From a virus, in IMG/VR virus record IMGVR_UViG_3300028867_000005, positions 1 through 64,000 of that record: a stretch of DNA of 64,000 nucleotides. One strand, written 5' to 3'. The notes under the pieces are model-generated. The model ran no database searches. It was not told the DNA's origin and saw nothing but the letters and a program-made list of their open reading frames with translations. Positions 19,727 through 38,376 of the stretch are shown here, piece by piece; position 1 is the first letter of the stretch; the number at the start of each line of letters is the position of its first letter. The translations under genes were made by a program, and so were the position numbers.

Positions 19727-21652
19727 ATGTCCAAAACCCCCAATGATTCTGTTGAAGGAACTGCCTTTAATCAGGCAGCGCCCCTGGCTGAGCGCACGGA
19801 AGCGCTGGGCATCATGCAGAAGTCGTTTGCCCCGAAAGGTATCCGCGACCTGATCATGCCGCCGGATGAACTGGCACCCGTCATCGACTTCATCACTCAG
19901 CGGATGGAGGACGATGCGGTCAATAAGTCGCTGAACTACGGCAATATCATCCCTTTTCCCTCGCGCAACGCGGCTACCCATGCCCGCGGAATGCAGTCCG
20001 TGCAGTTGGACGAGTACCAGGTATCGGTGCAGGGCGACTTCTGGGAGCGGCCATCGCTGCTGAATTTTGAAAGCCTGCGCGCCATGGTCGACCAGACGCC
20101 GGTGCTGAATGCCGTCATCATGACCCGCCAGCGCCAGATAAGCCGGTTTTGCCGGGTGCAGGAATCCGGCGAGGGGCCGGGCTTCACTGTCCGCCACGTC
20201 GACAAAGAGCACCAGGTTACGGACACGGAGCAGGAGAGCATCAAGCTCCTGAATCGGTTCGTGACCAACTGCGGGTGGGAGTTCAATGCGCGCGAACGCA
20301 AGCGCCTGAAGCGTGATAATTTCAGTGCCTTCATGGCAAAGCTGACCCGCGACACGCTGACCTTCGATGCCATGGCCATCGAAACCGAAATGAAGCGGGA
20401 TAAGAAGCTGGGCATTGACGGCCTATATGCCGTCGACGGGGGCACCATTCGCCTCTGTGTGGAGGCCGGCTACCAGGGCCGCGACGAAATCACCAGTCTC
20501 CAGTTCGTGAACGGGAAGATCCGCGCGCTCTATACCTTTGATGACCTGATTTATGAGGTCCGCAACCCGCGTACCGACGTGCGCGCCTGCGGCTACGGCT
20601 ACAGCGAGACGGAGGTGCTGATTCGCGTGGTCACTGGCTTCCTGAACGCCATGACCTACAACATCAAGGGCTTCGACAGCAACGCCATCCCTCGCGGGAT
20701 GCTCCACCTGCGCGGCGAATACGCCAGCACGGACATTGATGCCTTCAAGCGCTACTGGAACAGCATGGTCAAGGGCATAAACAATGCCTGGACGCTGCCT
20801 GTCATGGTCAGCAGGGACGCGGACAGCGCCGCCTCCTTCGAGAGCTTTGGCGAGCAGTTCAACGAAATGTACTTTGCCAAGTGGATGTCGTTTCTCACCT
20901 CGATCATCTGCGCCATTTACGGCATGTCGCCGTCTGAAATCAATTTTGATAGCTTCTCGGGCGGCAATACCTCATCTCTGTCCGGTAGCGACACCGAGGC
21001 CAAGCTCGAGGACAGCAAGGACAAGGGTCTGCTCCCGCTGCTGTCTTTCTACGAAAACACTTTGACCGACTATGTGCTGTCGGCCTTCGGTGACAAGTTC
21101 GTGTTCCGCTTCACGGGTCTTGACGAGGAAGATCAGCAGGCCCGGCAGGAAATGCGCAAGCTGGTCCTGACCGTGAACGAGGCGCGCGCGCAGGAGGGAT
21201 TTGACGCCATGCCGGGCCCGGTGGGGGATGCCCCGCTGAATCCATCGTTGATCGCTCTGTATACGCAGACCATCACGCAGGACCAGGGCGATGAGCCGGG
21301 CGAGAAAGAGGACTTTGGAACGCCGCCACCGGATGGCGGTCAGGACGTGGCCGGAGGCCAATCAGCCCAGGATGGGCAGGGGGCTCCGCAGGGTAGCGGC
21401 GCACCGGGAAAAGGGACATCAGGCACGGATGCCTCTAATTTTTCTCAGCCAGGCCACGCGCCGGCCGCGCAGCAGCAGGGTGGCCGTCAGCCACCGGAGC
21501 AGCCCGATATCGCCACCGGCGCCGCCGGGTCTGAAGGCGATGAAAGCGGAAAGGCCGCAGCGCCCACGGAAGCTCTTGACTTCGGCAAGCAGGATGACGA
21601 AGAGGAAGACTTCGGCAAATCCTTCGGCCTGAACATTTACACGGTAGAGTGA
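19727..21652 (+). CDS. Portal protein
   Basis: A 641-residue protein forming the ring through which DNA enters the head. Portal-type features include PVLNAVIMTRQRQISRF near residue 125, a long central segment with GYGYSETEVLIRVVTGFLNA and IPRGMLHLRG, and FLTSIICAIYGMSPSEINF, the usual crown-proximal pattern of HK97-like portals. The last 130 residues are a low-complexity acidic tail ending in repeated DFGK motifs (DFGKQDDEEEDFGKS). A strong GGAG site precedes the ATG. Family confidence is high although the tail is unusual. Confidence 0.85.
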   Translation: MSKTPNDSVEGTAFNQAAPLAERTEALGIMQKSFAPKGIRDLIMPPDELAPVIDFITQRMEDDAVNKSLNYGNIIPFPSRNAATHARGMQSVQLDEYQVSVQGDFWERPSLLNFESLRAMVDQTPVLNAVIMTRQRQISRFCRVQESGEGPGFTVRHVDKEHQVTDTEQESIKLLNRFVTNCGWEFNARERKRLKRDNFSAFMAKLTRDTLTFDAMAIETEMKRDKKLGIDGLYAVDGGTIRLCVEAGYQGRDEITSLQFVNGKIRALYTFDDLIYEVRNPRTDVRACGYGYSETEVLIRVVTGFLNAMTYNIKGFDSNAIPRGMLHLRGEYASTDIDAFKRYWNSMVKGINNAWTLPVMVSRDADSAASFESFGEQFNEMYFAKWMSFLTSIICAIYGMSPSEINFDSFSGGNTSSLSGSDTEAKLEDSKDKGLLPLLSFYENTLTDYVLSAFGDKFVFRFTGLDEEDQQARQEMRKLVLTVNEARAQEGFDAMPGPVGDAPLNPSLIALYTQTITQDQGDEPGEKEDFGTPPPDGGQDVAGGQSAQDGQGAPQGSGAPGKGTSGTDASNFSQPGHAPAAQQQGGRQPPEQPDIATGAAGSEGDESGKAAAPTEALDFGKQDDEEEDFGKSFGLNIYTVE

Positions 21653-21654
21653 CC

Positions 21655-23175
21655 ATGCGGAAAGTGCTGAAGCCTGAGCCGGCAAAAAAGACGGCGCCAC
21701 CCAAGCCCGTTGAGCAGCCGCCTGATGTACAGCCGGGCGATAGCGTCTATTTCAGCCACCCTGAAAATGGCCCGATGTACGGCGCCGTCGTGTGCAAGGG
21801 CGTGCACGGCATGAAGGTGCGGGATGACGGCGGCACGCATCATGACGTGCACTGGGACCGTTTCCTGGGGCACCGTCAGCGGATGCAAAAGCGCTTCAAC
21901 ATTATTGATCACGGGGAAGACGGCGCCATCGCTCACGATGAGGACGGTAAAAAGGTTTTTGTCCGTGGGCAGATACCGGACCCATCGGGGGATGAAATGC
22001 CTACGTTTGAAAAGGCGCTTTTTTTCAAGGCCATGGACAAGAGCAAGCTCCAGCAGAAAACCATTACCGATAAAAACGGGGTGCAGTCAAAGCGCTGGGT
22101 CAGCAACGGACAGCCACCCCCTGTGCACCCTGTCGGTACGCATGTGAAGTTTCAAATGGGCTCGATGGCTGGCCAGGGCCACGTCACAGCTGCTGGCAAG
22201 CATGGCGGGCACGTCAAGGACGAAACAGGATTTGAGCACAAGGTAAAGTGGGGCCAGGTTACGCACCATGAGCAGGATGGGCCTGCCGATGGCGAGCAGG
22301 CGCCCGATAAGTTTGACGCTGCGGCATTTGCCAAGCTGCATGACCAGGCTGACGTATCGGTCGCATCGGTGCTGGCCGGATTCCCGGAAGACACCAAGGC
22401 CAAGATTGACAATGTGGAGGCCAAACTCAAAGGAGTGAAGCCGACTATCGAGTTATTCAAGAAGGACGGCAAATACACCCCGGAGCGTTTAGCGCTGCAC
22501 CAGACCATCATTGACAAGTTCCTAAGCCCTGAAAAGATTGCCGCCGCCCGCCCAGCCGATGGGACGCCTCCCTCGTTCACCATCCTGGGCGGTCGTGGTG
22601 GCAGTGGAAAAAGCAGCTTCAAGAACACGGTTTATGACCCAGGCAAGGCCGTGGTGCTGGACGCCGATGAAATCAAGCACATGCTGCCGGAGTACAAGGG
22701 GTGGAATGCCTTCGAGGTTCATGACGAGAGCGGGGATCTGTTCGATAAGATCACGGACCTGGCCAAGACCAATGGCCTGAACATCGTGCACGATGCCACC
22801 ATGAAGACGCCGGACAAGGCTGTATCGCTGGTGCACGGCTTCAAGTCGAGCGGGTACTCCGTGGCAGCCCACTACATGCATCTGCCCCGTCAGGAGGCCG
22901 CCAAGCGCGCCGTAGGGCGTTTCCTTGGGGGTGGCAATGAGGGCCGGTATGTCCCTGTCGACGTGGTACTGGGCAATACCAAGAACGAGCAGTCCTTTGA
23001 TGCCATCAAGCCACTGGTCGATGCCTGGTCTTTCCGCGACAACAACGTGCCCCGCGGCCAGCCGCCCAAGCTGATTGCGCAGTCCAAGGGCAAAACGACA
23101 GCTGCGCCGGCTGGCAAGCCCATGCACAAGGCGCTCGATGGTGCTATCATTGTGTTTCAGAGGAAAAATCCATGA
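21655..23175 (+). CDS. Head-region protein with zeta-toxin-like kinase domain
   Basis: A protein of about 506 residues. The C-terminal half is a zeta-toxin-type P-loop kinase: GGRGGSGKSSF near 312, VVLDADEIKHMLPEY, and HDATMKT near 379. The N-terminal part has two KOW/SH3-like segments (QPGDSVYFSHPENGPMYGAV; PVHPVGTHVKFQMG) flanking the linker EKALFFKAMDKSK and RWVSNGQ. Zeta enzymes phosphorylate UDP-sugars or related small molecules. No epsilon antitoxin is adjacent. The setting between portal and head genes suggests a virion-associated effector, which is inference. A GTG two codons upstream, overlapping the portal stop, is an alternative start. Confidence 0.78.
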   Translation: MRKVLKPEPAKKTAPPKPVEQPPDVQPGDSVYFSHPENGPMYGAVVCKGVHGMKVRDDGGTHHDVHWDRFLGHRQRMQKRFNIIDHGEDGAIAHDEDGKKVFVRGQIPDPSGDEMPTFEKALFFKAMDKSKLQQKTITDKNGVQSKRWVSNGQPPPVHPVGTHVKFQMGSMAGQGHVTAAGKHGGHVKDETGFEHKVKWGQVTHHEQDGPADGEQAPDKFDAAAFAKLHDQADVSVASVLAGFPEDTKAKIDNVEAKLKGVKPTIELFKKDGKYTPERLALHQTIIDKFLSPEKIAAARPADGTPPSFTILGGRGGSGKSSFKNTVYDPGKAVVLDADEIKHMLPEYKGWNAFEVHDESGDLFDKITDLAKTNGLNIVHDATMKTPDKAVSLVHGFKSSGYSVAAHYMHLPRQEAAKRAVGRFLGGGNEGRYVPVDVVLGNTKNEQSFDAIKPLVDAWSFRDNNVPRGQPPKLIAQSKGKTTAAPAGKPMHKALDGAIIVFQRKNP

Positions 23176-23339
23176 GCAAAGAGCAGGGTGCAAAGCCCAA
23201 CAATGATGGGGTGACGGAAGATCCGGCAGAGCGCGAAAACCCTGACGCCTTCGACTACGAGGATTGCCGACCGCTCCAGTCGGGGGATAAGACGGGCATC
23301 ACGCTCTCTGACGAGTTCATGGCCCGCTTCAAGCGCTAA
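23172..23339 (+). CDS. Small acidic hypothetical protein
   Basis: A 55-residue protein (MSKEQGAKPNNDGVTEDPAE...) with an AGAGGA site and an ATGA overlap with the zeta-like gene. It ends in LSDEFMARFKR. It could be a small partner of the upstream protein, judged by coupling only; it does not resemble epsilon antitoxin. Confidence 0.6.
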   Translation: MSKEQGAKPNNDGVTEDPAERENPDAFDYEDCRPLQSGDKTGITLSDEFMARFKR

Positions 23340-23366
23340 AAAAACCCCGGACATGCCGGGGTTTTT
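23340..23366. terminator. Bidirectional rho-independent terminator
   Basis: CCCCGG-ACATG-CCGGGG is flanked by A-runs on the left and T-runs on the right, so it can stop both the rightward head operon and the leftward block that ends at 23453. Confidence 0.9.
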
Positions 23367-23415
23367 CTTGTGTTCCTGTCAGCCGCATGCGGCCATCATT
23401 AGGTCATCGACCAAA

Positions 23416-23444
23416 GGTTCCCCCGCGCTCGCGGGGATAGGCCC
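23416..23444 (+). CRISPR. Solitary type I-E-like CRISPR repeat
   Basis: A 29-nt element beginning GGTTCCCCCGCGCTCGCGGG and ending GATAGGCCC. It has the geometry of E. coli type I-E repeats: 5-nt handle, CCCCGC / 4-nt loop GCTC / GCGGGG stem, and an 8-nt 3' part beginning ATA. About 21 of 29 positions match the E. coli repeat. There is no second repeat, leader or cas gene. It lies in a 110-bp convergent gap, downstream of the terminator on its sense strand. A chance hairpin is the alternative. Confidence 0.45.
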
Positions 23445-23452
23445 AAGTGTGC

Positions 23453-23908
23453 TCATGGCTGCACCTCGCCGCACCATTTGTCCAGCAACTCATCAAAAGG
23501 TACGCCGCTGCTGATGTTGGCCCGGAATAGGTCGGCAAACTGCGGCACGTTCATTTTGCGCATCTTCTCGTACCTGGCATGGCTTATTGTCAGCCGCTCC
23601 ACTTCCCCGATCAGGGCCAGGATTGCGGCGGGGTTGGCGAGGGCGATGTATTCAGAGTCACATTCAGGCCAAGAAAGGCTGGTTTCGCTGAATCTGACAA
23701 AATCACCGTCTATGCTCGCGGCACAAACTGCGCTTACCAATCCGCCGGGGACGCGGTGGGATATTGACGCGATTGGGGTAACTGGACTGCCATCTGCGCA
23801 GCGTAATTTCCGCATTTCATTTTTCCCGGCAAAAATATAGGCCCAAGGCCCCGGCGTTGCTTTTTCCGCCGCCGCCTTCAGTGCTGAAATCTGGTCAGGG
23901 GTCATCAT
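23453..23908 (-). CDS. Ead/Ea22-like protein
   Basis: A 151-residue protein and the last gene of the leftward block. LKAAAEKATPGPW near the N-terminus and YIALANPAAILALIGEVERL in the middle are the standard signature of Ead/Ea22-like phage early proteins, whose function is unknown. A GGAG site precedes the first of two adjacent ATGs. Confidence 0.8.
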   Translation of the reverse strand: MMTPDQISALKAAAEKATPGPWAYIFAGKNEMRKLRCADGSPVTPIASISHRVPGGLVSAVCAASIDGDFVRFSETSLSWPECDSEYIALANPAAILALIGEVERLTISHARYEKMRKMNVPQFADLFRANISSGVPFDELLDKWCGEVQP

Positions 23909-24186
23909 GGCTTGCGTTCTCCTATCAATTTTGTCAGCACTGCGCCAGTCTGGTGGATGGCGTCAACGCGATTCTTGTACGGGCCTTTGTACGGCAGGCC
24001 GGCAGCAGTGTCCATGTCGGCGTGGGCTTCATGCCAAGCGCCAATGGCGCCCCAGATGGCGTTAACGTCACGGGCATCATGTGCTGCCAGCGCCTCGCGC
24101 AGCGTGTGTGCTTCTGCATTCATGCAGCCCTGCGGAAAGTATGCATTCAGCAAGGCCCGCGCCGCTTCGGCAAGCTGGTCAGTCAT
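23905..24186 (-). CDS. Hypothetical protein
   Basis: A 93-residue protein (MTDQLAEAARALLNAYFPQG...), mostly helical, with an AGGAG site. No family recognised. It is coupled to its neighbours by 4- and 8-nt overlaps. Confidence 0.65.
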   Translation of the reverse strand: MTDQLAEAARALLNAYFPQGCMNAEAHTLREALAAHDARDVNAIWGAIGAWHEAHADMDTAAGLPYKGPYKNRVDAIHQTGAVLTKLIGERKP

Positions 24187-24496
24187 GGCCTTGCTCCTTT
24201 CGAGAAATGCCTATCTCAGTTGCCGCCTCGTAAAGCGCTTTCCAGCGCTCGGCAGACATTCTTTCTTCGGGGAAGTGCCGGATTCCGCAGCAAGCACAAT
24301 TTATTGTGTGCTCGTAAAACACCACAAAAGGTAAAAGCGCATTTCGCAACATGGCAAGCTGGTACTCGTATTCCTTTTTCTGGTAGGCTGCGCCGGATAG
24401 ATAGTGCCTGGCAATGCCCCGCATGGATTCAGGGCTATATTCCACCTCAACGCTTGCATATTCATTCGCTCTAGCTTGTGCCTTAGTCGTCATCAC
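24179..24496 (-). CDS. Hypothetical protein with CxxC
   Basis: A 105-residue protein. ARANEYASVEVEYSPESMRG is followed by a helical region and CACCGIRHFPEER. The single Cys cluster could bind a metal together with nearby His. No family recognised. Confidence 0.62.
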   Translation of the reverse strand: MMTTKAQARANEYASVEVEYSPESMRGIARHYLSGAAYQKKEYEYQLAMLRNALLPFVVFYEHTINCACCGIRHFPEERMSAERWKALYEAATEIGISRKEQGHD

Positions 24497-24846
24497 CCCA
24501 CCTCCTTCTTCATCGCATCCAGCACCGCGTCAAGCGGCGTGGGGCCGCTGCCTTGCGCGGACATGTCACCCTTAGTCGTCAAGTTAACAACATAGCATTT
24601 GTACGGCTCTAAATTAATCCGCTCAAAAATGACCCGCTTGGCTTTCGCATATCCGTTTTCCAGCAGCCACTCCAGCGCCCGCTCTTTTTCTTCGAGGGCG
24701 GCGATTTTATTGGCTATTTCAGCTTTGATAATATTCGCCCTTGCCGCCTCTTCGCCACACAGTCCGAAGTTGCAGCCTTCCAGCGCCACCCCGGAGCCTC
24801 TGCAGCGCGTACCGTACTGCTCAACCAACTCCGTAATCTTGCTCAC
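24493..24846 (-). CDS. Hypothetical protein
   Basis: A 117-residue protein starting at GTG that overlaps the upstream TGA. Residues 30-65 are a coiled coil (ANIIKAEIANKIAALEEKER). The C-terminus, TPLDAVLDAMKKEVG, is a helix common to phage early proteins. The frame is open upstream but there it overlaps a real gene. Confidence 0.62.
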   Translation of the reverse strand: MSKITELVEQYGTRCRGSGVALEGCNFGLCGEEAARANIIKAEIANKIAALEEKERALEWLLENGYAKAKRVIFERINLEPYKCYVVNLTTKGDMSAQGSGPTPLDAVLDAMKKEVG

Positions 24847-25163
24847 GTCCCTACTCCTGCGCCATCTTCTACCCACGAAAACTCGGCGACCGGGAAATGG
24901 GCGCGGCAACCAACGCAAAAAGTGCCACTGTAGAAAAATGGGTCTCTTGCGTATGTTTCGCACAGCGCCAGTCCCATTTTTGTCTCGGTTCCACACTTTG
25001 AATGGATGTAGGCCCGACGAAGTGGGCGAATAAACCCCTTGGCGCGTTCTTCCGGTGTCAGCACTACATACGCCTTTTGCATCCCGGTGGCAGGGTCTAT
25101 CTCTCTGTGGTCTGGTGTCACTGGTCTGCCGTCAGTAAGACATGTTTTAGTCTCGTTTTGCAT
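24843..25163 (-). CDS. Conserved phage zinc-binding protein
   Basis: A 106-residue protein with the conserved phage pattern PVTPDHREIDPATGMQKAYV, then SKCGTETKMGLALCETYARD, FFYSGTFCVGCRAHFPVAEF and DGAGVGT. The CG and CVGC cysteines probably bind zinc. This family is common in proteobacterial phages and has no assigned function. The ATG at 25163 is supported by the conserved N-terminus; longer reading overlaps the previous gene. Confidence 0.78.
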   Translation of the reverse strand: MQNETKTCLTDGRPVTPDHREIDPATGMQKAYVVLTPEERAKGFIRPLRRAYIHSKCGTETKMGLALCETYARDPFFYSGTFCVGCRAHFPVAEFSWVEDGAGVGT

Positions 25164-25356
25164 TTTCACACTCCGTATTAGCGGCTTCGATGATGGGCGA
25201 AAGATCAGACACCCATTCGTATTCGACTTTGAGCAAAACGTAATCCTTGGTAATGCCGGGATGTTGCGTGTAGACCCGCTTTGCTCGATCAAGATGCTTT
25301 ATGAAGATTCCCAGTTTCCACCCATCAATCATAACAGCGGCTTTTTTAGCCATCAC
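25147..25356 (-). CDS. Small hypothetical protein
   Basis: A 69-residue protein (MMAKKAAVMIDGWKLGIFIK...) with a strand-helix pattern. MIDGWKLGIF followed by FxKHLDRA resembles small phage proteins of unknown function. Overlaps both neighbours. Confidence 0.6.
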   Translation of the reverse strand: MMAKKAAVMIDGWKLGIFIKHLDRAKRVYTQHPGITKDYVLLKVEYEWVSDLSPIIEAANTECENAKRD

Positions 25357-26132
25357 TCACCCCCTGCCGCATCTTGGCCGGCCATTGCGGCGTCGATTGC
25401 TGCTTCGACCATTTCGATGGTTTTGTTAACGCAGCCGTTGCCGAAAAAGTCGATTACCAAACTTACTTCATAGTGCTTGCGTAGCCACTGATACCGCCGC
25501 GCATCCTTCACATCTGCCGCCGTGATGGTGGTGCACAAGCTTTCATCGGTCATGGAGTGTCGAAGTGCCACTTGAAGCCACGGTGCGTAGTTCTGCGCCA
25601 GCAACGTATCCTTTACGGCTTTTGCATCCCATTCCAGCGGACTAGTTACAGTCATGAGCCATTCCTTCCCGTTGAACACGTCCCATAGGGCACATACCAT
25701 CTCGGGATATTCCGGCAGCACCACCACGCACCGGTTCGCCTCAAGATCAGCGATGCGCTTGCTAAGTCTGCCTATTTCGCCCTGTTTATCGTCGCACTTG
25801 TACGCCTCGATATACGCCACGTAACCGTGTGCCCGATGGCAGACAACGTGCATGGTTCCTGCCAGCGTTTTCTCGCCGCGCAGTAGCTGGGTGTCGGCAG
25901 GAAGTTTCAGTTTTTCTCTGATCCACCGGGCTTCGTATTCCAACTCAGCGATACGCGCCTGCAAGGCGTCGATCTCGGGCTGGCGCAATTTCCAAGCCTT
26001 CCACGCACCGCGCAGCCAGTGGTCGCAGTAGCCTTCCGGCCCTGCGTCGCGCTCGTTGTTGAAGAACGTAGTCGAGACGTACCCGACAGCCACAAGTGCC
26101 GCCTCAAACTCCGCCCGCATCTTCTCGCTCAT
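25353..26132 (-). CDS. Ead-like phage protein
   Basis: A 259-residue protein. The N-terminus (MSEKMRAEFEAALVAVGY) and WKAWKLRQ are typical of phage early proteins with a repeated modular tail. A coiled coil follows (IDALQARIAELEYEARW). DARRYQWLRKHYE and VEAAIDAAMAG form the characteristic Ead-type C-terminus. Function unknown. Confidence 0.75.
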   Translation of the reverse strand: MSEKMRAEFEAALVAVGYVSTTFFNNERDAGPEGYCDHWLRGAWKAWKLRQPEIDALQARIAELEYEARWIREKLKLPADTQLLRGEKTLAGTMHVVCHRAHGYVAYIEAYKCDDKQGEIGRLSKRIADLEANRCVVVLPEYPEMVCALWDVFNGKEWLMTVTSPLEWDAKAVKDTLLAQNYAPWLQVALRHSMTDESLCTTITAADVKDARRYQWLRKHYEVSLVIDFFGNGCVNKTIEMVEAAIDAAMAGQDAAGGE

Positions 26133-26698
26133 GATTTCACCTGTTTCAGTGCTTCGATTGCTCTTTCGAGCGCGCGCGACAGCCAGCGGATACGGTCCTT
26201 GGCAGCTGTCAGGTAGACAATCGGCATTTTTGCCTTACCGGCAATCACGTCATCCATCTTCGGATACTCATTGCCATGCATGAAGACGGCATTGGCAAGC
26301 TCGTCATCCGTCATATTGCCCAGCGAAAGCTGCGAGCGCTCACCGTCATAATGGCCTGCGTGCGGGTCTTTCTCTCCGGTCACTTTCCAGTGAGAGGATG
26401 GGGTGCTACCGCTATCAGCTAGCGGCGCAGCTTCGAGCATGGCTCTGTAGATATTTTTGGTGTCGCCGTCGCCGGTCAGTGTATGTTTCGGCAAGATAAA
26501 TACCGCGCGCAGCATCGCCTCTGTCGGCTCGACCGGCACAATCCGATGTGTTGCCATGTTTATGGCAGAGTCCCGCAGCCGCTCCAACTCATCGATCAGA
26601 GCAAGCAGTTCTTCCGGGGTAATAATGACGATTTTTGGATTAGAACGAAGCCCACTGTTTGCAATGCGCCGCAGCGATTCAATCTTATCGTGGGTCAT
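26129..26698 (-). CDS. Ead-like phage protein
   Basis: A 189-residue protein. It has ITPEELLALIDELERLRD, then THRIVPVEPTEAMLRAV and YRAMLEAAP, a module recurrent in phage early proteins, and a helical C-terminus (LSRALERAIEALKQV). Function unknown. Coupled to both neighbours. Confidence 0.72.
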   Translation of the reverse strand: MTHDKIESLRRIANSGLRSNPKIVIITPEELLALIDELERLRDSAINMATHRIVPVEPTEAMLRAVFILPKHTLTGDGDTKNIYRAMLEAAPLADSGSTPSSHWKVTGEKDPHAGHYDGERSQLSLGNMTDDELANAVFMHGNEYPKMDDVIAGKAKMPIVYLTAAKDRIRWLSRALERAIEALKQVKS

Positions 26699-27702
26699 GA
26701 CTTTACTCCTTCCATCTGCCGAACCCCTGCAAAAGCCACCATGCGCTTATAGATATCCTTGATCGTAGTCCAGGGGATATCCTTCTTGTTGGTCACCGTG
26801 CCTTCGTTGTCGCAGGTGGTGCAGGCCGTCTGCGAGAGGCCATCGTCAACGAAGCCGGAGCCGCCGCAGTCCTGACACTCTTCGTCAACATCGACATGAA
26901 ACTCGCCGATGCACTCCCGCTTCATTTTGTTGGTCACGTCGGCATCGCCGTTCGCGCGAATCAAAACGGCTTTGGCTTTCCATCCCTTGGGTATGGCAGC
27001 CTGCATCTTAATAAAGGCCTGCAGGAAGCGGGATGCGTAGGCCGTGGTCGATTCGACGGTGTTGTAGGCATCATCTTCATGGCCAACAGCGATGGTCTTC
27101 TCATAACCCAGCAAGGAATTCGCTGTATCTGCAATATCGCCGAGTTCAAAGCCTTCAGGAAGCACCATAAGCGCTTCTCTTTTTTCCGTTAACTGTTCGG
27201 TCAATATTTTCACGCTATCAGTGGCTTGCTTATCGCGCATAATCATCCAGTCACGAACAGCATTTACTGATTCAGCAGTTCCATAAACGTAAAGGCCGCT
27301 TTCGCTTTCACCAACCTCAAGACGATTGACCGTTGTTGTCCATCCATCAGGAACGACGATACCCATAGCCGTCATGGCCAGCGTGAAAAACCGGTCAAAA
27401 AACTTCGGAACCATGGTTTCATATTCAGGCCGGCCGCTGACAGGAAAACCCAATTCCGTATCAAGATGATCAGTCAGGGCCTGCGTGCCATCGTGTACCG
27501 CATGCCATGCCTCGTCGAAGTCAAGACGCACGCTGTCGGTATCTCCGCCATGGATGGCCGCCACCATGAAACGGCAGAGCTGATCGTGCATATGCGCCTT
27601 GAGCGCTCCATCCTCGCGGCCGTCAGCATTGGAAATCAGATACTGCGTACAATCGCGCTCGAGGGCGGCCCAGCAGGCATTTTTCAGGTAGGTGAGGCTC
27701 AT
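26695..27702 (-). CDS. Hypothetical protein with CxxCxGxG zinc motif
   Basis: A 335-residue protein starting MSLTYLKNACWAALERDC. Most of it is helical and unrecognised. Near residue 285, CQDCGGSGFVDDG and CTTCDNEGTV form a DnaJ-like zinc pair. The internal start at 27702 is chosen over an upstream one that lies inside the previous gene. A related zinc pair is found in the protein at 1774-2337. Confidence 0.7.
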   Translation of the reverse strand: MSLTYLKNACWAALERDCTQYLISNADGREDGALKAHMHDQLCRFMVAAIHGGDTDSVRLDFDEAWHAVHDGTQALTDHLDTELGFPVSGRPEYETMVPKFFDRFFTLAMTAMGIVVPDGWTTTVNRLEVGESESGLYVYGTAESVNAVRDWMIMRDKQATDSVKILTEQLTEKREALMVLPEGFELGDIADTANSLLGYEKTIAVGHEDDAYNTVESTTAYASRFLQAFIKMQAAIPKGWKAKAVLIRANGDADVTNKMKRECIGEFHVDVDEECQDCGGSGFVDDGLSQTACTTCDNEGTVTNKKDIPWTTIKDIYKRMVAFAGVRQMEGVKS

Positions 27703-27863
27703 TTTGTGGTTTCCATCTTGTAGGCGCCTATCTTTCCTTCGCCACACGCGCATTTATAAAAACCGCGCTTTGAAAGCTGAATAGTGCTGAGTGATTCCTG
27801 CCGGATGGTCACGTTTTTTACGAACGTCCATTTATGGCGAGTACCATTGGTACATTTTTTCAT
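27699..27863 (-). CDS. Small Cys-containing protein
   Basis: A 54-residue protein (MKKCTNGTRHKWTFVKN...) with CACG near its C-terminus, suggesting a small zinc ribbon together with the first Cys and a His. An AGGTGA site supports the start. No family recognised. Confidence 0.6.
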   Translation of the reverse strand: MKKCTNGTRHKWTFVKNVTIRQESLSTIQLSKRGFYKCACGEGKIGAYKMETTK

Positions 27864-28096
27864 TTCGTCACCTTTCTTGCCGCCTTGCGCTCCGCCTTCT
27901 CGCGCTCGGTATAAACCCGGTGGCACTCCGCGCTGCAAAAGCTTTTGTTATGCTGCGCGTGCACCTTTCCGCATTCGAGACAGGACTTTTTCCCGTCTCC
28001 CTTTTTATTGAACTGGGGCTGGCGCTCGGCTGGCATACCGCCAAACATGGCGCCAGTCATCCCAGCGATAAGCCTTAAAATGCTGATTCTTGCCAT
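27860..28096 (-). CDS. Small zinc-finger protein
   Basis: A 78-residue protein. A hydrophobic N-terminus (ISILRLIAGMTGAMFGG) may be a membrane helix. CLECGKVHAQHNKSFC and SAECHRVY form a likely zinc finger, and the C-terminus is basic and helical. Function unknown. Confidence 0.6.
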   Translation of the reverse strand: MARISILRLIAGMTGAMFGGMPAERQPQFNKKGDGKKSCLECGKVHAQHNKSFCSAECHRVYTEREKAERKAARKVTK

Positions 28097-28103
28097 TGTT
28101 ACC

Positions 28104-29120
28104 TCAGAAGGGGATATCGCTTTCGCTGAGCACGGCATTGCTGCCGTACTGCTCAATGCGGTCCAACTCGTAGGTGGCGCGCGGGCCAAACGCCAGCTTC
28201 AGCCACAGGCGGCGGAAAACTTCGATGGAGTCGCGGCCACGCTCCAGAATCATCGTGGTGGCCGTGGTCACTTCACAGAAGCAAACCCCCATGATGTACT
28301 TGATGCAGATGGAGTAGTTGTCGGCTTCAACGAGAGTAGGCAGGATGCGCTGGAACATGCCCAGGTTATCCGGGTCACCATGGGCCGCATAAAGCTTCTC
28401 GAAAACATTACCGACCATCACGCCATCCATCTGGTCGACGGTGCGCCGCGTGGATGGGTCGGATTTGTCTAGCGAGTTGGCGTGATCGGCGATGATGGGG
28501 GCCAGCATCCGCAGCAGTGTGCGCGTCTGCTCGTCCAGCAGGTAGAGCACGTTATTCAGCTTCTTGGCCTCGTCATGGTCAAGCTCTGCCAGTCGGGCCT
28601 TCAGCGCGTTCAGCATGGACGAGTAGTACCAGCCGATTTCAAAGGCGCCAGCGCCGAAAGCCTTCAGCGATTCCTTGCCTGAAGCCTTGAGTCCGTCAAT
28701 GGTATCGCTGACGTTGTGCAGCTTGTCGGCCGCGATAACCAGCAGCGCATTGTCCTGCACATACACAGGATTGTGCATACACAGCAAATAGGACTGCTTG
28801 CGGTCCATCCAACTGCGCTTTTTTCCAAAGCTATCGAACTTCTTTTCAGAGCACGAAATGACAATGTTTTTTACGGCGATGTCGAGTTCACCAACCAATT
28901 TCCAGTAGTGCGGCTCACAATCCTCCTTCACATCATGAAGGAGCGCAGCAGCTATCTGGGCTTCTGACCCGCCAGCCATTGCCACGATGCTGGCGACCGC
29001 GACAGGGTGCCCGATGTAGGGCACGCCGCTGACTTTGCGGACCTGGCCAGCATGGGCGGCCTCGGCCACTTGCATTGCCGCCACTGTGAGCGGTGTCGTA
29101 CAGAAGGAAGGGGTTATCAT
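28104..29120 (-). CDS. SpoT/RelA-type HD hydrolase-like protein
   Basis: A 338-residue protein. The first 140 residues follow the Mn-dependent (p)ppGpp hydrolase domain: AHAGQVRKVSGVPYIGHP with His23 and His38, ALLHDVKED with His62-Asp63, Glu66 and Asp67, and ADKLHNVSD with Asp132 and Asn136. These are the metal- and base-binding positions of SpoT and the small alarmone hydrolases. No synthetase domain is present. The remaining 200 residues are helical and unrecognised. It is the first gene of the leftward block, has a GGAG site, and is preceded by the TCAAATTTGA motif. Clearing alarmone during infection is an inference; another nucleotide could be the substrate. Confidence 0.78.
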   Translation of the reverse strand: MITPSFCTTPLTVAAMQVAEAAHAGQVRKVSGVPYIGHPVAVASIVAMAGGSEAQIAAALLHDVKEDCEPHYWKLVGELDIAVKNIVISCSEKKFDSFGKKRSWMDRKQSYLLCMHNPVYVQDNALLVIAADKLHNVSDTIDGLKASGKESLKAFGAGAFEIGWYYSSMLNALKARLAELDHDEAKKLNNVLYLLDEQTRTLLRMLAPIIADHANSLDKSDPSTRRTVDQMDGVMVGNVFEKLYAAHGDPDNLGMFQRILPTLVEADNYSICIKYIMGVCFCEVTTATTMILERGRDSIEVFRRLWLKLAFGPRATYELDRIEQYGSNAVLSESDIPF

Positions 29121-29246: not shown

Positions 29247-30440
29247 ATGAAGATAGCCAAGCCACTGCTCATAGATATAGGTTCGCTCGCTCCCGGCCGG
29301 ACAGACCAGGTGCTGGACGTGATGTATAAGGCCATCGGCGACCCGCCCGGCGAGGATGCCGATATCTGGCATGAGCACCCGTCTGCCTTCGTGCGCCTGC
29401 TGGTGGAACTCTTTACTAAGCGCGGCCTGACGCGGATAGCTGGCATTCACGCGGAGTTGTCCGCATGGCTGGCCGGCGAGAAGCACAATCCGTCCCTGCG
29501 CCGGGAGCCCCGGCCCGGCGAGGTGGCGCGCTGGACCCCGGCTGAGTTGAAGCTGGCGCGGCTGTACCTGGAAAGCCTGCCCCGCGACCAGTGGACGCTG
29601 GACGATTGGAGCCTGTTGATAGATTGCACGGTCGAGCGCTACATGCCGACCGTGGTGGTGCGCGAGGAAGCACAGTGGCTGGCGGCCAAGGCCTTCATGA
29701 TGGGCGCCGTGCAGGCTGCCATGGGCACTGTAACGGACCCGCAGGCAGCGGTTGTCGTCAAACATCTCCCGTCCTCTGTGGATAAAGCAGTGGATGAATT
29801 CGGGCTGAGCAAGCTTCAGTCTTCTGTTTTGCGGTATGGAGCCGCCCGGTGCGCGGAGAATGTCCGTAACATGGGCGATGCTGTCCGCCACCGGCTCCGT
29901 ACAGTCATCATGGCGCACCAGGAAGGGGTCATGCTGGGTGACAAGCTGGCGACTGCTCATAGTCTCCAGACTCAGCTTTTTGACGCTTTTGGTAGCCTGA
30001 ACCGGGACTGGCGCCGCATTGCGGTAACAGAAGCCGGCGAGAATGCGAACCAGGGCCTGATAGCCAGCCTGGCGCCCGGCGCGCGCGTGCAGCGAGTGGA
30101 GCGGTATGCTGGGGCCTGCCCCTTCTGCCGCAAGATAAACGGTGTCATCATGCGCGTGGCCAGCGCCAGCGATGAGACACTGGACGGTGACACTCAGGTA
30201 TGGCCCGGCAAGACCAACATCGGCCGGTCAGCGGCGCCGCGCAAGCGCGTGGGTGATGTGCTGATTGAGCGCTCCGCGGCTGAGCGCTGGTGGGTGGCGG
30301 CCGGCGTGCAGCATCCGCATTGCCGGGGAACTTGGCTGTCGCTGCCAGGCATGACGGACGTGATGACGGATGCTGACGCAGCGCGCCAGTCCAGAATGGA
30401 TAAGTGGCTGTCTGAACTTAATTTGCAGGATTTGAAATGA
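29247..30440 (+). CDS. Mu gpF-like minor head protein
   Basis: A 397-residue head-morphogenesis protein of the Mu gpF / SPP1 gp7 family, thought to sit near the portal. The signature is in the C-terminal third: a helix with IAVTEAGENANQGLI, then CPFCRKINGVI near residue 291, and HPHCRGTW near 357. Cys and His there probably bind a metal. It starts a rightward unit and overlaps the next gene by 4 nt. The N-terminal 200 residues are helical and not recognised. Confidence 0.8.
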   Translation: MKIAKPLLIDIGSLAPGRTDQVLDVMYKAIGDPPGEDADIWHEHPSAFVRLLVELFTKRGLTRIAGIHAELSAWLAGEKHNPSLRREPRPGEVARWTPAELKLARLYLESLPRDQWTLDDWSLLIDCTVERYMPTVVVREEAQWLAAKAFMMGAVQAAMGTVTDPQAAVVVKHLPSSVDKAVDEFGLSKLQSSVLRYGAARCAENVRNMGDAVRHRLRTVIMAHQEGVMLGDKLATAHSLQTQLFDAFGSLNRDWRRIAVTEAGENANQGLIASLAPGARVQRVERYAGACPFCRKINGVIMRVASASDETLDGDTQVWPGKTNIGRSAAPRKRVGDVLIERSAAERWWVAAGVQHPHCRGTWLSLPGMTDVMTDADAARQSRMDKWLSELNLQDLK

Positions 30441-31732
30441 TAATTTTCCTGAAGGGCCATGTTGATGAACACCAGCGCCACTTGAAAAACGGAAAGGTTG
30501 TGCTTGTCCGCGCGCATGATCGGCTGACTAATCCACAGAGCCATGAAGATATCCGTGAGGCGATTGGTCGCCATGCTGAGGCTATGGGATTGGAAACGGA
30601 TCGCCATAGCAGCGGTATTTCATCGTCACAATACCTGACGGTAACGCATCGTCTTAATGAAGACGATTCTGGTAAAGACTACAAAATCCGTATATCCGAC
30701 CATGTTTTGCCACCAACCTATAAAATGATGAATGGTGAGGCAGACTACGAAGTTTCGGTGCCAGGTAAAGAGCATCAGGATACCCACGGAGAATGGTCAG
30801 ATGCTATAGACTTTCTCTCTCGCCGTACCGGCAAGCCAGTACCAAAGACAGTACAGGCCCGCATTGATCGTCTCAAGCAGGAAGAGGCCGACAAACAAGC
30901 TATGCTGCGAAGATACCAAGAGGAAGCAGTTGCCAGGCTCAATGCAGGGCAGGCTGAAAAGGCAAATATGCTTGCTGCTGCCGAAAAGTCATCCAATCCA
31001 GAAGTGGTCGATGCTCTGCATGAATTGAATATCATTCTTGAGGAACTTAAAGACAAGAATGTTACGGGGAACCGTAGGAACAAACTGAATCTGCGCCGTG
31101 ATAAGAGACTTCTTGTAATAAAAGAATTACTGAGTGCACAACCAATGGCAAAGGCAATTGTATTCATGAAGGCCACAGCCGCAGAAGCTGCCGCCGTCAT
31201 CCGCGACATTCCCAAGCAGAAGAAAATCCCCATGGTGCTGGCGCCGGACGCCTTTACCCCCACCACTCTCCCTGCCCAGCCGGTCTACATGCTGACGTTT
31301 CAGGGCATCGACGTGGCTATTGAAAACCGCGAAGGTAGCGTGCGCTCCGGGGTAGATCCAGACGGCAAACCCTGGCAGACGCGGATGCTTTACCCCTACG
31401 GCTATGTCAGCCGCTCCGAAGGCGCCGATGGTGACGAGGTAGATTGCTATGTAGGGCCCAGCCAGCAGGCCGAGAATGTCTACGTCATCCACCAGCGCAA
31501 AGCCGGGAAGTGGACGGAGTATGACGAAGACAAGTGCATGCTGGGCTTCGATAGCATCGAGGACGCCAAGCTGGCCTACATGAAGCACTACAATGACCCG
31601 CGCTTTCTCGGTGAGGTAACGACAATCCCTGTCGCTGAGTTCAAGCGCAAGGTGGCGGCTACAAAGAAAGCACCCGGCATGATCAAGGCGCTTGTCGTGT
31701 TCCCAGCCGCGCAGACTGCTACAAAAAAATAA
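30437..31732 (+). CDS. Phage polyvalent-type protein with inorganic-pyrophosphatase domain
   Basis: A 431-residue protein. Residues about 295-400 match the pyrophosphatase-like domain of phage polyvalent proteins: GVDPDGKPWQTRM, YPYGYVSRSEGADGDEVDCY, VGPSQQ, YDEDKCMLGF and AKLAYMKHYNDPRF. The Asp/Glu clusters are the expected metal ligands. The N-terminal 235 residues are separate (GKVVLVRAHDRL, then a coiled coil). The short motif MIIFLKG at the start recurs as MAKAIVFMKA at 237 and IKALVVF at the end. This looks like a fusion of two tagged modules. Injection with the DNA is inferred. Confidence 0.78.
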   Translation: MIIFLKGHVDEHQRHLKNGKVVLVRAHDRLTNPQSHEDIREAIGRHAEAMGLETDRHSSGISSSQYLTVTHRLNEDDSGKDYKIRISDHVLPPTYKMMNGEADYEVSVPGKEHQDTHGEWSDAIDFLSRRTGKPVPKTVQARIDRLKQEEADKQAMLRRYQEEAVARLNAGQAEKANMLAAAEKSSNPEVVDALHELNIILEELKDKNVTGNRRNKLNLRRDKRLLVIKELLSAQPMAKAIVFMKATAAEAAAVIRDIPKQKKIPMVLAPDAFTPTTLPAQPVYMLTFQGIDVAIENREGSVRSGVDPDGKPWQTRMLYPYGYVSRSEGADGDEVDCYVGPSQQAENVYVIHQRKAGKWTEYDEDKCMLGFDSIEDAKLAYMKHYNDPRFLGEVTTIPVAEFKRKVAATKKAPGMIKALVVFPAAQTATKK

Positions 31733-31741
31733 GGGTGAGCC

Positions 31742-34700
31742 ATGATTGTCTTTCTCAAGGCTGAACAGTTTGGCCTGTTTGATGTTCCCACACTGGTCCA
31801 TGGCTCCGTGAGCAAGACCGGTGTGGTGACCGCTCCGCATGTGCGCATGCAGAAAAAGCGGCTGGACGTGCATGCGCACAAGCCTGCGCACGCTGCCATT
31901 GCAGAGCCTGACCTGTTTGCTGAGCCGCAGCCTATCGAGCCGGCACCAGCGCAACTGGCGGCAAAGCAGCCTGAGCCGGCCCCGGCCCCGGCCCCGCTGA
32001 CGCTGGAGGATATGGTGGCAAAGCTCGGCAAGGACCGTATTGCCCAGGTCATGGAGCGCGGCACCCCGGATGAGAAGGAGACATTGATTGGCCTGATCGC
32101 CAATGCTGTTGGTAAGCCCCACAAGGAAGCGCGCGCGGCGCTGGAGAGCATGTTTCCTATCGCTCTGGTGCCGGTGCCGAGCGAGTCAACCCTCGTCGAG
32201 CACGTCACCGGGCGAGGCAAGACCTTGCGTGGAGTGATCGCCTCCGACTGGTCGAAAGATGAGGCCATGCTGGTTGACCCCTATACCTTCAAAAAGGACG
32301 GCGGCTGGTTTGTCCGTGAAAAGCATCTTATCGATGGCCAGCTACCACCTCTGCCGTTGCCGTCTCCGGTCAACCCTACATCTCCCGCCTCCTTTGCTGC
32401 CCCGCGCGAACCTGAGCCTGAGCCGGCGCCGGCCGCGCGCTCCGTCGACCTGGAGCAGCCATTTGATGCTGCCGCAGCTCCAGCCTGGGGCGTGAGTGCC
32501 GGCGTCACCCAGTCCCAGCGCAAAGAGTACAACCGGCAGGCCCAGGCTATTGTCGCCAATGGTGGCCCCCAGGATGCGGCCGAGCGCCAGCTGCTGACCA
32601 TGTATTCCGGGAATGGCGGCATTGGTGACAGCCTCAACGAGTATTACACAGACCCCAAGGTCGCCGCGGCCATGTGGCGCGTGCTGCGCCAACTCGGCCT
32701 GAAGGAAAACGCCACGGTGCTCGAGCCGTCCTGCGCCACCGGGGTATTCCTGGAGACGGCGCCGGCTGCAGCTACCGTCACCGGCGTCGAGTTGGACCCG
32801 GTTAGCGCCAAGATTGGTCAGGCCCTGCACGGTGCCAAGCATGAGGTGCTGAATTCGAGCCTGGAGCGCTTCGCCACTCAGGATGGCCGCCAGTTTGATG
32901 CGGTGATTGGGAATGCGCCGTTCGGGCTGCGCGGCTCCATGCTGGCCGACGACAAGCGCCACCTGAAGACCGCTGAGGCCTATTTCCTGGATACCTCGCT
33001 GGACAAGTGCAAGTCTGGCGGTATCGTGGCCATGATCGTGCCCACCGGCGTCATGGACGGCAAGAATAACCGCGGTCTGCGTGAGCGCCTGCTGCGCAAG
33101 GGTGAGTTCCTGGGCGCCCAGCGTATGCCCAATACTGCCTTCGAGCACGGACATACCGAAGTTACTACCGATATCGTCTACCTGCGCAAGCGCCCGGAGG
33201 ATGTGGCGGCCGCCCTTGAGCGGGTAGAGCAGGCTGACCTGCAGCGCATTGGTGTATGGGATGCCGATTTTCTGGCCGGCAAATATTTCACCACCAGGGG
33301 TGCGCCCAATATCTTTGGCAAGCAGGAGGCCGGCTGGCGTGCAAAGGCCGGCATCGGCTCAGACATTACTGTCAATGGCAGCATGGAGGGGGTGCCTGAT
33401 GCGATTGCCGAGTTTGAGCCGGACAGCCGCGCGCAGGGCCCTGCCGACATGCCCAAGCTGCTAGAGCTGTTCCAGGAAAGCGACCATCCCCAGCTGATGG
33501 CCAACAGTCGGCGCCGCGCGTACACCGCGGCCAAGCCCGGCGACGTGCGCACTATTGATGGTGTGGCGTATGTCCTGCAGGGCGATCCGCCTCGCTGGCA
33601 CCGCGTTGAAGACGTAGCCGCCACCAGCGGCATGGCTGATGCCGCCCGGCTCGCCACGCAGATAGGCCAGTTGATTCAGGCGCACGAAGAGGGCGAGGAA
33701 ACCGACCATAAGCCCGTCATGCAGGCTCTGGAGGACTGGGTAAAGGCCCATGGTATCCCGTCGAAAAACCCTGAACTGCTGCTGGCCGCCAAGAGCGACA
33801 AGAGCCTGTATCGGCTGATTGGTTCGGTCGACCCCACCGGCAAGTTCTCCGATATCGTTTCCGGCAGAGCCCCGCGCAAGCTGGCCGGCGACTTTGATAC
33901 GGTGGCACAGGGTCTGGCGCTGCAAAAGGGATCGTTTACGGCTGGCGACCTGGCTGCCAAGCTCGGCCGCAAGGATGCTGATACCGTGCTGGATGAGCTG
34001 TACGCCTCGGCAGACTATGCCCTGCTGCCGGACTCCAGCTGGACCACCATGAACCAGTTCGCATCCGGTGACCTGTGGTTGCGCTATGACGCGATGAAAA
34101 AGGTTCTGGATAACGACAAGCTTCCGCCCGAGCAGCAGCGCAAGTTCTCCAGCCAGTTGGAAGCCATCGAGCAGGCTATCGACCCCAAGTCCCTTGAGGA
34201 TGTTGAAGTCGAGCTGAACAGCGCATTCCTGCCGCTGTATGTGCTGGAGGCCTTCCAGAACCACAAGCGCGATGAGTACCTGGAAAAATCCCCAGGCGCG
34301 ATATCCTGGCTGACCCCGACGGAAATCACGCTGGACCATGCCATGTACAAGGTGCATGGCGGCCTGAATGTCGATCTTCTGGAACGCTACCTGAACCGTA
34401 ACCGCGTGCAGAAAAAAGAGCTCCCCACCATCGAGGAATGGAATCAGGAGTTCAAAGAGTGGCTGTGCACGTCGGAGTATCGTGATTCGGTGGAGGCCCT
34501 GTATAACCGCAAGTTCCGCGGCTACCGGCCGGAAGTCTTCAGCGATGAGACGATGGATATTCCCGGCATGGTCACAGCCGGCCTGAAGCAATACCAGTAC
34601 GGCGGCCTGCGCTGGGCATTGCAGCGCGGCAAGGGCATTGTTGCTGCTGACGTTGGCCTGGGCAAGACCGTGCGCGGGCTGATGCTGGCGCGCATGGCGA

Positions 34701-37700
34701 AGATTACCGGACAGGCTAAGTGCCCAGCCCTGACGGTGCCGAAGTCGGTACTTGCCAACTGGGTATCCGAGGCAAACCGGTGGTTCCCCGGCTCCCGTAT
34801 TATGGTGATAGGCGAGACATACAGCACTGACAAGGATGGTGAGCTGAAGGGCGTCACCGATAGTCCCGACGTGCGCAATCGCAAGCTGCATGAGCTGACG
34901 CAGAACGATTACGACTTTGTGCTGTTTTCTGCCCCTGCGTTTGAAGATATCGATATCAATCCGATCATGAAGGAAGAATACGCGCAGCGGGACTTCTTTG
35001 ACCAGCGGGCAGCCGCACTGAAAAATGCCGGAGACAAAAAGCGCAATAAAATCCGCGAGGCATACAATCAGGCGCTGGCAAACCGCGATATCGGCAAGCG
35101 TACTGACGCCATTTACTTCGATGATCTGCCTATCGACATGCTGATCATCGACGAAGGCCATGCCTACAAGAACCTGTTTAAAGCCAAAAACCGTTACGGC
35201 GAGAGCCCGAAGTTCCTTGGCGGCCAGGGTGAGAGCCAGCGCGCCATGGATATGCACTTCAAATCCATGCATATTCTGGAAAAGTCTGGCGGCAAAAACA
35301 TGTACATGCTGACGGCCACCCCGACGAAAAACAGCCCGCTCGAGGTGTACTCGATGCTGAGCTATATTGCCCCTGAGGCCTTCGAGCGCATTGGTATTCG
35401 CAACTCCGAAGAATTCCTTGACCGCTTCTGCGTGTTCGATACCGATACCATCTACACTCTCAGTGGTGGCTTTGAGCCGGATACGCTGGTGACGACGGGC
35501 TTCAAGAACCTCGATGAACTGCGTGAAATCATGAGCCGGTACATTGACCGGAAGACGGCTGAGGATGTTGGCCTGGTGCTGCCGACCCGCGACGACAAGA
35601 TGCACTTCCTGGAAATGAGCGACATGCAGCGGTCGGTATACAACGGCCTGCGCGCGGAGCTGGCGGAATCACAGAAGGATGGCGATGCCACCGGCGATGC
35701 TCATATCTTCAGCATCATGAACCGGATGCGTCTGGCTGCGCTCGATCTGGAGTTGCTGGACCCGCATCTGTACAAAGGCCAGAAAAGCCCCAAGTACGAA
35801 GAGTTGGCGAAAAACGTCAAAGCCATGTGGGAGGGTGAGAAGGGCAGCCAGGTTATCTTTGCTGATGCCGTTGACGCACACGAAAAAATCCGTGATTCAC
35901 TGATTGCGCTGGGCATCCCAAAGCACAAGATTGCCATCGTCAATGCGGAAGTCGCCAAAACATCGATGCAGCGCCAGAATATTGCCGAAGGCTTCAACAA
36001 CGGCAAATATGACTTCGTGATCGGCAATACCGACGTGATGGGCGAGGGCATGAACCTCCAGAAGCGCACCACGGATATCCACCACCTGGATATTCCATGG
36101 AACGCGGCCATCATGCAGCAGCGCAATGGCCGCGGGCTGCGCCAGGGCAACATCAATGAGTCGATGCGTATCCACACCTACCTGAGTCGCGGCACGTTCG
36201 ACGGCTACCGCTGGCAGTCCATGAACGCGAAAAAGGACTGGCAGGATCTACTGTGGCACGGCGGCGACAAGGTGGAGAACCTGAACAAGGAAGGCGGCCC
36301 GGTCAGCAAAGATGAAATGATGATCATGCTGGCGGAAGACCCGGAAGCCGCGCGCGTGGCGATGAGCGAGAACAAGGCAGCTGTCACGGAGCGGTATGAC
36401 GCGCAGCAGCGTGCCAGCCTGGTCCATGAATTCAGCCGCTTTGCCACCCTGCGCTCCAGCTATGCCAAGGTGAAGGACAAGAGCTCCCCGTCGGCACTGC
36501 GCCTCAAGACCGCGATGGACCGGACCAAGAGCGCCTTGCAGGCCAATAAATACCTGGTCGACAAGGACGTGCTCGAGCACGCTGGCGCCGCCATCATCAA
36601 CCCGAATACCGGCAAGGCCTTGATGGTCGGCCGCGGGGTGGAGCGCATGGACGAGGCTAGCCAGCCTGAAAAGCTGGTAATTACCGGCGTCGATACATCC
36701 ACCGGTACCCTGAAGTGCCGCGCTTATGGCGTGCCTGATGCGCCTTCCATTTATGTGTCGCGTGATGAGCACCAGGGCCTGACTGACTTTGCTTATGACC
36801 CGGTGGAAGAGGGCCATATCATCGCGCGCAAGGTAGACGAGCAGATCAAGGATGGCAGCCTGAACGCCAGTAGCCCGTCTGAGCTGCGCAAGGTTCCGCA
36901 TCATGTCCTGACGGAGCTTTACCCCACGCTCCAGCAGCACCTGAAAGAGCGCGCCAAGAGCTGGAATTACGCCACCCGCGCGTCAGGGTTCGCCATGGTG
37001 AAGGACGGCAAGCCCTACATCGCAAAGACTGGTGAAGCTCGCAAGGTTCTGGATTCTGCCGATATCATGCTGCCTACCCCTGAGCATCGTGCGCTGGCTA
37101 TTCAGGGTTACATCGACCGGCAGAATGACCGCGAGTTAAAACAGGATTACACTGCCTCCAACTCGAGTCGTTCTGGTCATGGCTACAACATTCCCAGCCC
37201 GGTGAAAATAACAACATCGTATGGCATGAATGGCGGCGGCTATCGTGATGAGCACAAAAACCCATGGATTGATGCTGGCAAAGAGCTGTTTGGCTCTGAG
37301 TTCGAGGAAGAGGCGCACCAGGCATACATGCAGCACGCACTGGCCGCTGCCAACAAGGCAACTGACCTGAAGGGCGTGATATCTGCGCTGGCGCCGACCA
37401 TGAAGGTGGAGTACGGCAAGTACACATGGCCGAAAGAATCGCTGGCCTATATGTACCGCCGCGCGCAAGAGCATGGTGCCCTGCACCCGGATGCATTGCG
37501 GTCTGATCATATCCCGATGCTGACGAAGTATCAGAGCGAGGAAGCTCCGCTGCTGGGTAACTCAAAGTCGTCGCTGAGCACTCTTCTGCGCCTCGCCTTC
37601 ATGTCCGGCCATCATGACCTGGCCGCAGCGATGGTAGTGGCGGCAAAGGATATCCCGGCCAAAACCAAAGCCGATGCCCTGGACCAGTTGCTTGTCGGTA

Positions 37701-38271: not shown

Positions 38272-38376
38272 CTGCGTAGTGACAGCACAATAAGCTGGCC
38301 GGCCCCTGGGGCTACCTCTCTCCAGCCCATCATGGATGAAGCAGGGGCCGGACTGATTCCATACAGCGGACCGCGC

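Follow-up and report, generated by a model that had tools for sequence, protein, structure and literature searches.

A solitary type I-E CRISPR repeat in an uncultured myovirus is a candidate RNA anti-CRISPR

Solitary CRISPR repeat units (SRUs) of viruses are a known class: 2,103 members have been described in collections that include IMG/VR3 and GTDB prophages, and two working RNA anti-CRISPRs (Racrs) directed against type I-E systems have been published (PMC10651486). RacrIE1 and RacrIE2 inhibited the I-E system of Pseudomonas aeruginosa; inhibition was shown for them, not the mechanism (PMC10651486). The mechanism was demonstrated for RacrIF1: Cas6f binds and cuts the RNA, the product upstream of the cut is inhibitory, and Cas7f joins an aberrant complex (PMC10651486).

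Here, we describe a solitary I-E repeat in the virus record IMGVR_UViG_3300028867_000005. The record is 88,278 bases long, and its positions 1 to 64,000 constitute the window. The family of contigs to which the window belongs may already be among the 2,103 published SRUs.

The repeat and its identical counterparts in bacterial arrays

The 29-nucleotide element GGTTCCCCCGCGCTCGCGGGGATAGGCCC is located on the plus strand at positions 23416-23444 of the window. Its layout is 5-6-4-6-8: the segment GGTTC, the stem strand CCCCGC, the loop GCTC, the stem strand GCGGGG, and the eight-nucleotide handle-like segment ATAGGCCC. It is identical to the I-E repeat of E. coli in 21 of 29 positions. Both the geometry and the degree of identity to the E. 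coli repeat agree with a preliminary description of the locus, which had been made from the letters of the DNA. The predicted 6-bp stem forms in transcripts of 29, 86, and 146 nucleotides. The position at which Cas6e cuts is established for the E. coli I-E system; transferred to the SRU, the cut is predicted between 23436 (G) and 23437 (A).

The 29-mer is present in one copy in the 88,278-base record, and no second repeat matching it in at least 21 of 29 positions occurs elsewhere in the record. A mini-array at the locus is ruled out, since the best neighbouring 29-mer within 200 nucleotides, degenerate repeats included, matches in only 15 of 29 positions; at distances of 60-62 nucleotides to either side, there are at most nine matching positions. 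In tblastn searches, the proteins encoded near three I-E loci of repeat-bearing bacteria matched nothing in the 88 kb of the phage. The absence of an array and of cas genes, both stated in the preliminary description, was thereby corroborated. The SRU is intergenic, with zero ORFs of at least 60 amino acids overlapping it, and the stop codons of the flanking genes are at positions 23339 (plus strand) and 23453 (minus strand). The element has the properties by which SRUFinder recognizes SRUs: a match to a known repeat, an intergenic position, no second repeat nearby, and a virus without cas genes. The matches of the element in Rfam are all sub-threshold, including CRISPR-DR28 with 15.3 bits relative to a gathering score of 35. 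Shuffled versions of the window contain no match to the 29-mer at up to three mismatches. Estimated for a set of 17,823 known repeats, about 1e-8 chance matches of 29/29 to any of them are expected on both strands of 88 kb.

Genome contigs were scanned with the degenerate pattern TTCCCCCGCNNNNGCGGGGATAGRCC, which identified more than 100 stretches, mostly arrays with a period of 61 nucleotides. The exact 29-mer (29/29) is an array repeat in six genomes from the collection scan. It is the majority repeat in Halorhodospira abdelmalekii (43 of 56 units in the stretch), Thiohalocapsa halophila (32 of 36 units), and Rhabdaerophilum calidifontis (34 of 51 units), and also in the arrays of Thiocystis violacea, a Thiodictyon MAG, and a Chromatiaceae MAG. 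The array repeats of Candidatus Nitrotoga and Azoarcus are one base away from it. Within the order of Thiohalocapsa, the exact 29-mer is present in 6 of 195 genomes, always in multiple copies, and a reversed control pattern has no matches in the same 195 genomes. The identity to the array repeats extends to the flanks of the stem, GGTTC on the 5' side and ATAGGCCC on the 3' side. The gene casE (TIGR01907) was found in 12 of the 12 repeat-bearing genomes tested, in nine of them above the cut-off. Comparison with I-E repeats had been proposed in the preliminary description as a check, and the lack of any matching I-E repeat had been named there as the first of two grounds against its own proposal; in fact, identical repeats exist in arrays of casE-bearing bacteria. 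Judged by its sequence, the 29-mer is almost certainly a genuine I-E SRU. Its repeat is that of casE-bearing I-E systems, and the phage's own host may have such a system.

The DNA flanking the SRU does not resemble the leaders of I-E arrays, as it would after leader capture. Comparison of 2,744 spacers from I-E arrays with the phage provided no convincing match, and none better than those of reversed spacers.

The virus and the surroundings of the repeat

The virus is a tailed myovirus, as shown by the genes for portal, large terminase, major head, tail sheath, and baseplate proteins in the record. The nearest cultured portal proteins, with sequence identities of 54-57%, are those of Bordetella phage PHB04, Pseudomonas phage Dolphis, and Aeromonas phage ST4, which have genomes of 90-94 kb.

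The SRU is positioned between two convergent genes. The plus-strand structural operon upstream of it includes the gene of the portal protein (19727-21652) and downstream of it that of a 508-aa protein (21649-23175) with a zeta-toxin-like kinase/AAA_33 domain (PF06414, 9.2e-23) that also matches minor head protein families. The last gene of the operon, orf55 (23172-23339), encodes 55 aa and has no family match. The convergent gene on the minus strand (23453-23908) encodes an Ead/Ea22-like protein (PF13935), and its stop codon is 8 nucleotides from the SRU. Racrs often, but not always, occur together with acr genes; no known acr families were found among the genes nearest the SRU.

A bidirectional intrinsic terminator with an 11-bp stem, an A run on one side and a T run on the other, is located between the convergent genes at 23340-23366, 49 nucleotides upstream of the SRU. 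The preliminary description had placed a terminator shortly before the repeat on the sense strand, and had noted no visible promoter. Both observations hold, the second for the gap between the terminator and the SRU: no sigma-70 promoter was recognised in these 49 nucleotides (23367-23415, plus strand), from which the 5' portion of a Racr transcript would be derived. The gap contains the 12-nucleotide palindrome GCCGCATGCGGC (23382-23393), which occurs once in the window and was dropped as a signal because about one match at that stringency is expected by chance. A weak candidate promoter on the plus strand, TGCACA-16-TATCAT with a TG extension (9/12), is positioned at 23123-23150, just before orf55 and about 270 nucleotides upstream of the SRU, compared with the distance of up to about 250 nucleotides that is used as a mark of Racr promoters; chance alone should produce 1.3 sites as good as this one in the region. 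The candidate promoter precedes the terminator, and therefore transcription from it would reach the SRU only by read-through.

The minus-strand gene next to the SRU belongs to a group of small genes on the minus strand, comprising Ead/Ea22-like genes and orphans, that occupies 23453-29120 within an otherwise plus-strand operon. In PHB04, the plus-strand operon continues at this place, and therefore the junction is not common to the two phages. The region 28104-29120 of the window encodes an HD-domain protein resembling the hydrolase part of RelA/SpoT, and a (p)ppGpp synthetase/hydrolase is encoded near the corresponding position in PHB04. Farther downstream, a 431-aa protein (30437-31732) matches a PHROG annotated as DarB-like antirestriction, a 2062-aa protein (31742-37930) has N6-methylase, Eco57I, and SNF2/helicase domains in a DarB-like architecture, and a 1535-aa helicase is encoded at 38332-42939. 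The 2062-aa and 1535-aa proteins, about 8-15 kb from the SRU, have possible antirestriction functions.

Six contigs of the same phage from other samples carry the SRU unchanged. They are essentially identical around the locus, and therefore they provide no test of selection. The loci of about 40 sister phages with portal identities of 50-64% do not contain the element, and many of these sequences stop short of the equivalent junction. The conservation that the preliminary description had proposed to look for thus extends to six near-identical contigs, but not to the sisters. A relative with about 91% DNA identity (L144) ends about 500 bases before the SRU locus. Scans of viral contigs with the Ea22-like protein and its 352-aa neighbour matched only the same phage, and a 110-nucleotide query from the locus found no similarity to the flanking DNA in 50,697 phage records.

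Related solitary repeats in other phages

The I-E repeat subfamily to which the 29-mer belongs has further solitary members in the viral collection, at the loci L002/L008, L007/L010, L130, L134, and L136, which all differ in their flanks and have no neighbouring repeats. Together with that of the window, at least six unrelated phage lineages thus carry a solitary repeat of the subfamily. A mirror-image pattern with matched composition and stem has no matches in the viral collection. The L002/L008 repeat is identical (29/29) to those of arrays from Hydrogenophaga and other Comamonadaceae, the L134 repeat to those of several arrays (29/29), and the L136 repeat to that of Rhodomicrobium (29/29). 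The element of L132 matches in only 22 of 29 positions and lies inside an ORF, and was therefore left out of the solitary count.

When the 3' arm of the stem was left free in the search, all the solitary elements were found to keep a perfect GCGGGG, and there were two chance matches, both with unrelated arms. Among the few elements that this search, with its fixed 5' arm, could return, none had one or two of its pairs broken. Small as these numbers are, perfect arms would be expected if the repeats are maintained or are captured afresh time and again, but not if they are decaying relics.

The solitary repeats differ in their positions relative to genes. In L002 (1726-1754, minus strand) and L008, a strong terminator is located about 80 nucleotides downstream of the repeat. 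The L002/L008 element is a tidier Racr candidate than the SRU of the window. Spacer matches to L002 were partial only, one of them corresponding to a generic terminator, and were rejected. The repeats in L007 (12906-12934), L010 (333-361), and L130 (8990-9018) are positioned 3-15 nucleotides before a start codon, and that in L134 (5385-5413) tens of nucleotides before one. The adjacent phage genes in L007/L010, L130, and L136 have the same orientation as the repeat. Cas6e cutting in the leaders of L007/L010, L130, and L134 might also affect the mRNA of the following gene.

Contigs classed as viral also include L131/L133 (IMGVR_UViG_3300022181_000093) and L135, which carry I-E arrays of at least 24 repeats; either the arrays are truly viral, or the contigs are bacterial DNA that was misclassified. 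In L245 (1270-1335), two I-E repeats that are 28/29 alike are 36 nucleotides apart instead of 61.

Possible functions and comparison with known systems

The SRU is most likely an RNA anti-CRISPR decoy against I-E systems. We regard this reading as reasonably probable because of the identity of the repeat, its solitude, the lack of homologues of I-E-locus proteins in the phage, the recurrence of such repeats in unrelated phages, and the intact predicted hairpin. The preliminary description had suggested a Racr against an I-E system; the genuine I-E repeat unit stands, whereas the function is what we infer from it. The plus strand would be transcribed either by read-through of the terminator at 23340-23366 or from an unrecognised promoter within 23367-23415. 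Cas6e of the host would bind the hairpin in the RNA, cut after GCGGGG, and remain on the 3' hairpin after the cut. Cas7-type backbone subunits would load onto the phage RNA upstream of the hairpin, and the resulting dead-end complex would drain Cas6e and Cas7 away from real crRNAs.

The SRU could instead be an inert relic, a single host repeat that was gained by recombination and sits untranscribed and functionless in the convergent gap. This is unlikely, but carries some weight: the gap separating the terminator from the SRU has no recognised promoter, the diverged sister phages do not have the element, so that it is possibly recent, and the locus is clonal among the contigs that carry it. 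However, several unrelated phages also have intact solitary repeats of this subfamily, the free-arm search found no half-decayed copies, and no leader or spacer sequence of a host accompanied the repeat.

An improbable alternative places the function on the other strand. The stem is its own reverse complement, and therefore a minus-strand mRNA of the Ea22-like operon has the same CCCCGC/GCGGGG stem, which might titrate Cas6e or protect the mRNA end. The reverse strand is predicted to fold into this stem, and the SRU is positioned 8 nucleotides past the stop codon of the minus-strand gene and ahead of the bidirectional terminator, as a 3'-UTR element would be. However, the strand-specific flanks, GGTTC and ATAGGCCC, also match the arrays exactly, which a decoy made of the stem would not need, and the repeats of L007/L010, L130, and L136 are in sense with their adjacent genes.

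There is a slimmer chance that the SRU serves as a switch through which Cas6e acts on transcripts of the phage itself, instead of or besides being a titrating decoy. Binding and cutting by Cas6e would change the end or the leader of a phage mRNA, and the phage would in that case sense an active I-E host and adjust its gene expression. The idea is based on the position of the SRU between convergent genes with a bidirectional terminator, and on the repeats of L007/L010, L130, and L134 shortly before start codons.

It is very unlikely that the SRU works as a mini-array of one repeat, from which Cas6e would free the handle together with the downstream 32 nucleotides as a guide against a competing virus or the phage's own convergent gene. 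The eight-nucleotide handle preceding this pseudo-spacer is identical to that of array repeats, but there is no second repeat to close the guide, the 32 nucleotides are the end of the phage's own gene, and the 110-nucleotide query that covered them matched none of the 50,697 phage records.

A site for recombination with, or integration into, a host CRISPR array has a similarly low probability. Such a role was proposed for SRUs before Racrs were shown, in work cited by PMC10651486. A perfect match of 29 nucleotides is long enough for a core; however, no integrase was found among 30 larger ORFs tested and the 10 genes around the SRU, and the SRU is located between structural and Ea22-like genes. 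GC-rich phage DNA often contains short GC-rich hairpins, but a chance hairpin without relation to CRISPR is already refuted by the exact array matches, which include the loop and flanks and of which about 1e-8 are expected by chance; the empty mirror control also speaks against it.

The analysis adds a well-supported I-E SRU in a group of uncultured myoviruses with a size of roughly 90 kb. The exact match to the repeats of the cultured I-E bacteria Thiocystis violacea and Thiohalocapsa halophila makes the SRU directly testable with their Cas6e, and its placement behind a terminator raises the question of how such RNAs are made.

The I-E arrays of Chromatiales, Halorhodospira, and Rhabdaerophilum share with the phage an identical 29-nucleotide repeat; unlike the phage locus, they have multiple repeats, cas genes, and a TTTTCCCTTGTAGG-like leader. 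Virus-borne CRISPR mini-arrays resemble the SRU in that their repeats are identical to those of the host and cas genes are absent, but each of them has two or more repeats and a spacer directed at related viruses, whereas the SRU is one repeat and has no matching spacer (PMC11656645). RacrIF1, from a prophage of Thiocystis violascens, is likewise an intergenic repeat mimic of a phage, but it is of type I-F, has a strong native promoter, and acts by the demonstrated Cas6f/Cas7f mechanism (PMC10651486). T. violacea, in which the exact 29-mer is found, is another Thiocystis. In contrast to RacrIE1 and RacrIE2, the SRU is positioned between convergent genes, behind a bidirectional terminator and with no recognisable promoter, and is known here from sequence. 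It shares with them the single intergenic repeat matching that of a host, the absence of cas genes and of an array, the intact stem-loop, and the I-E type (PMC10651486).
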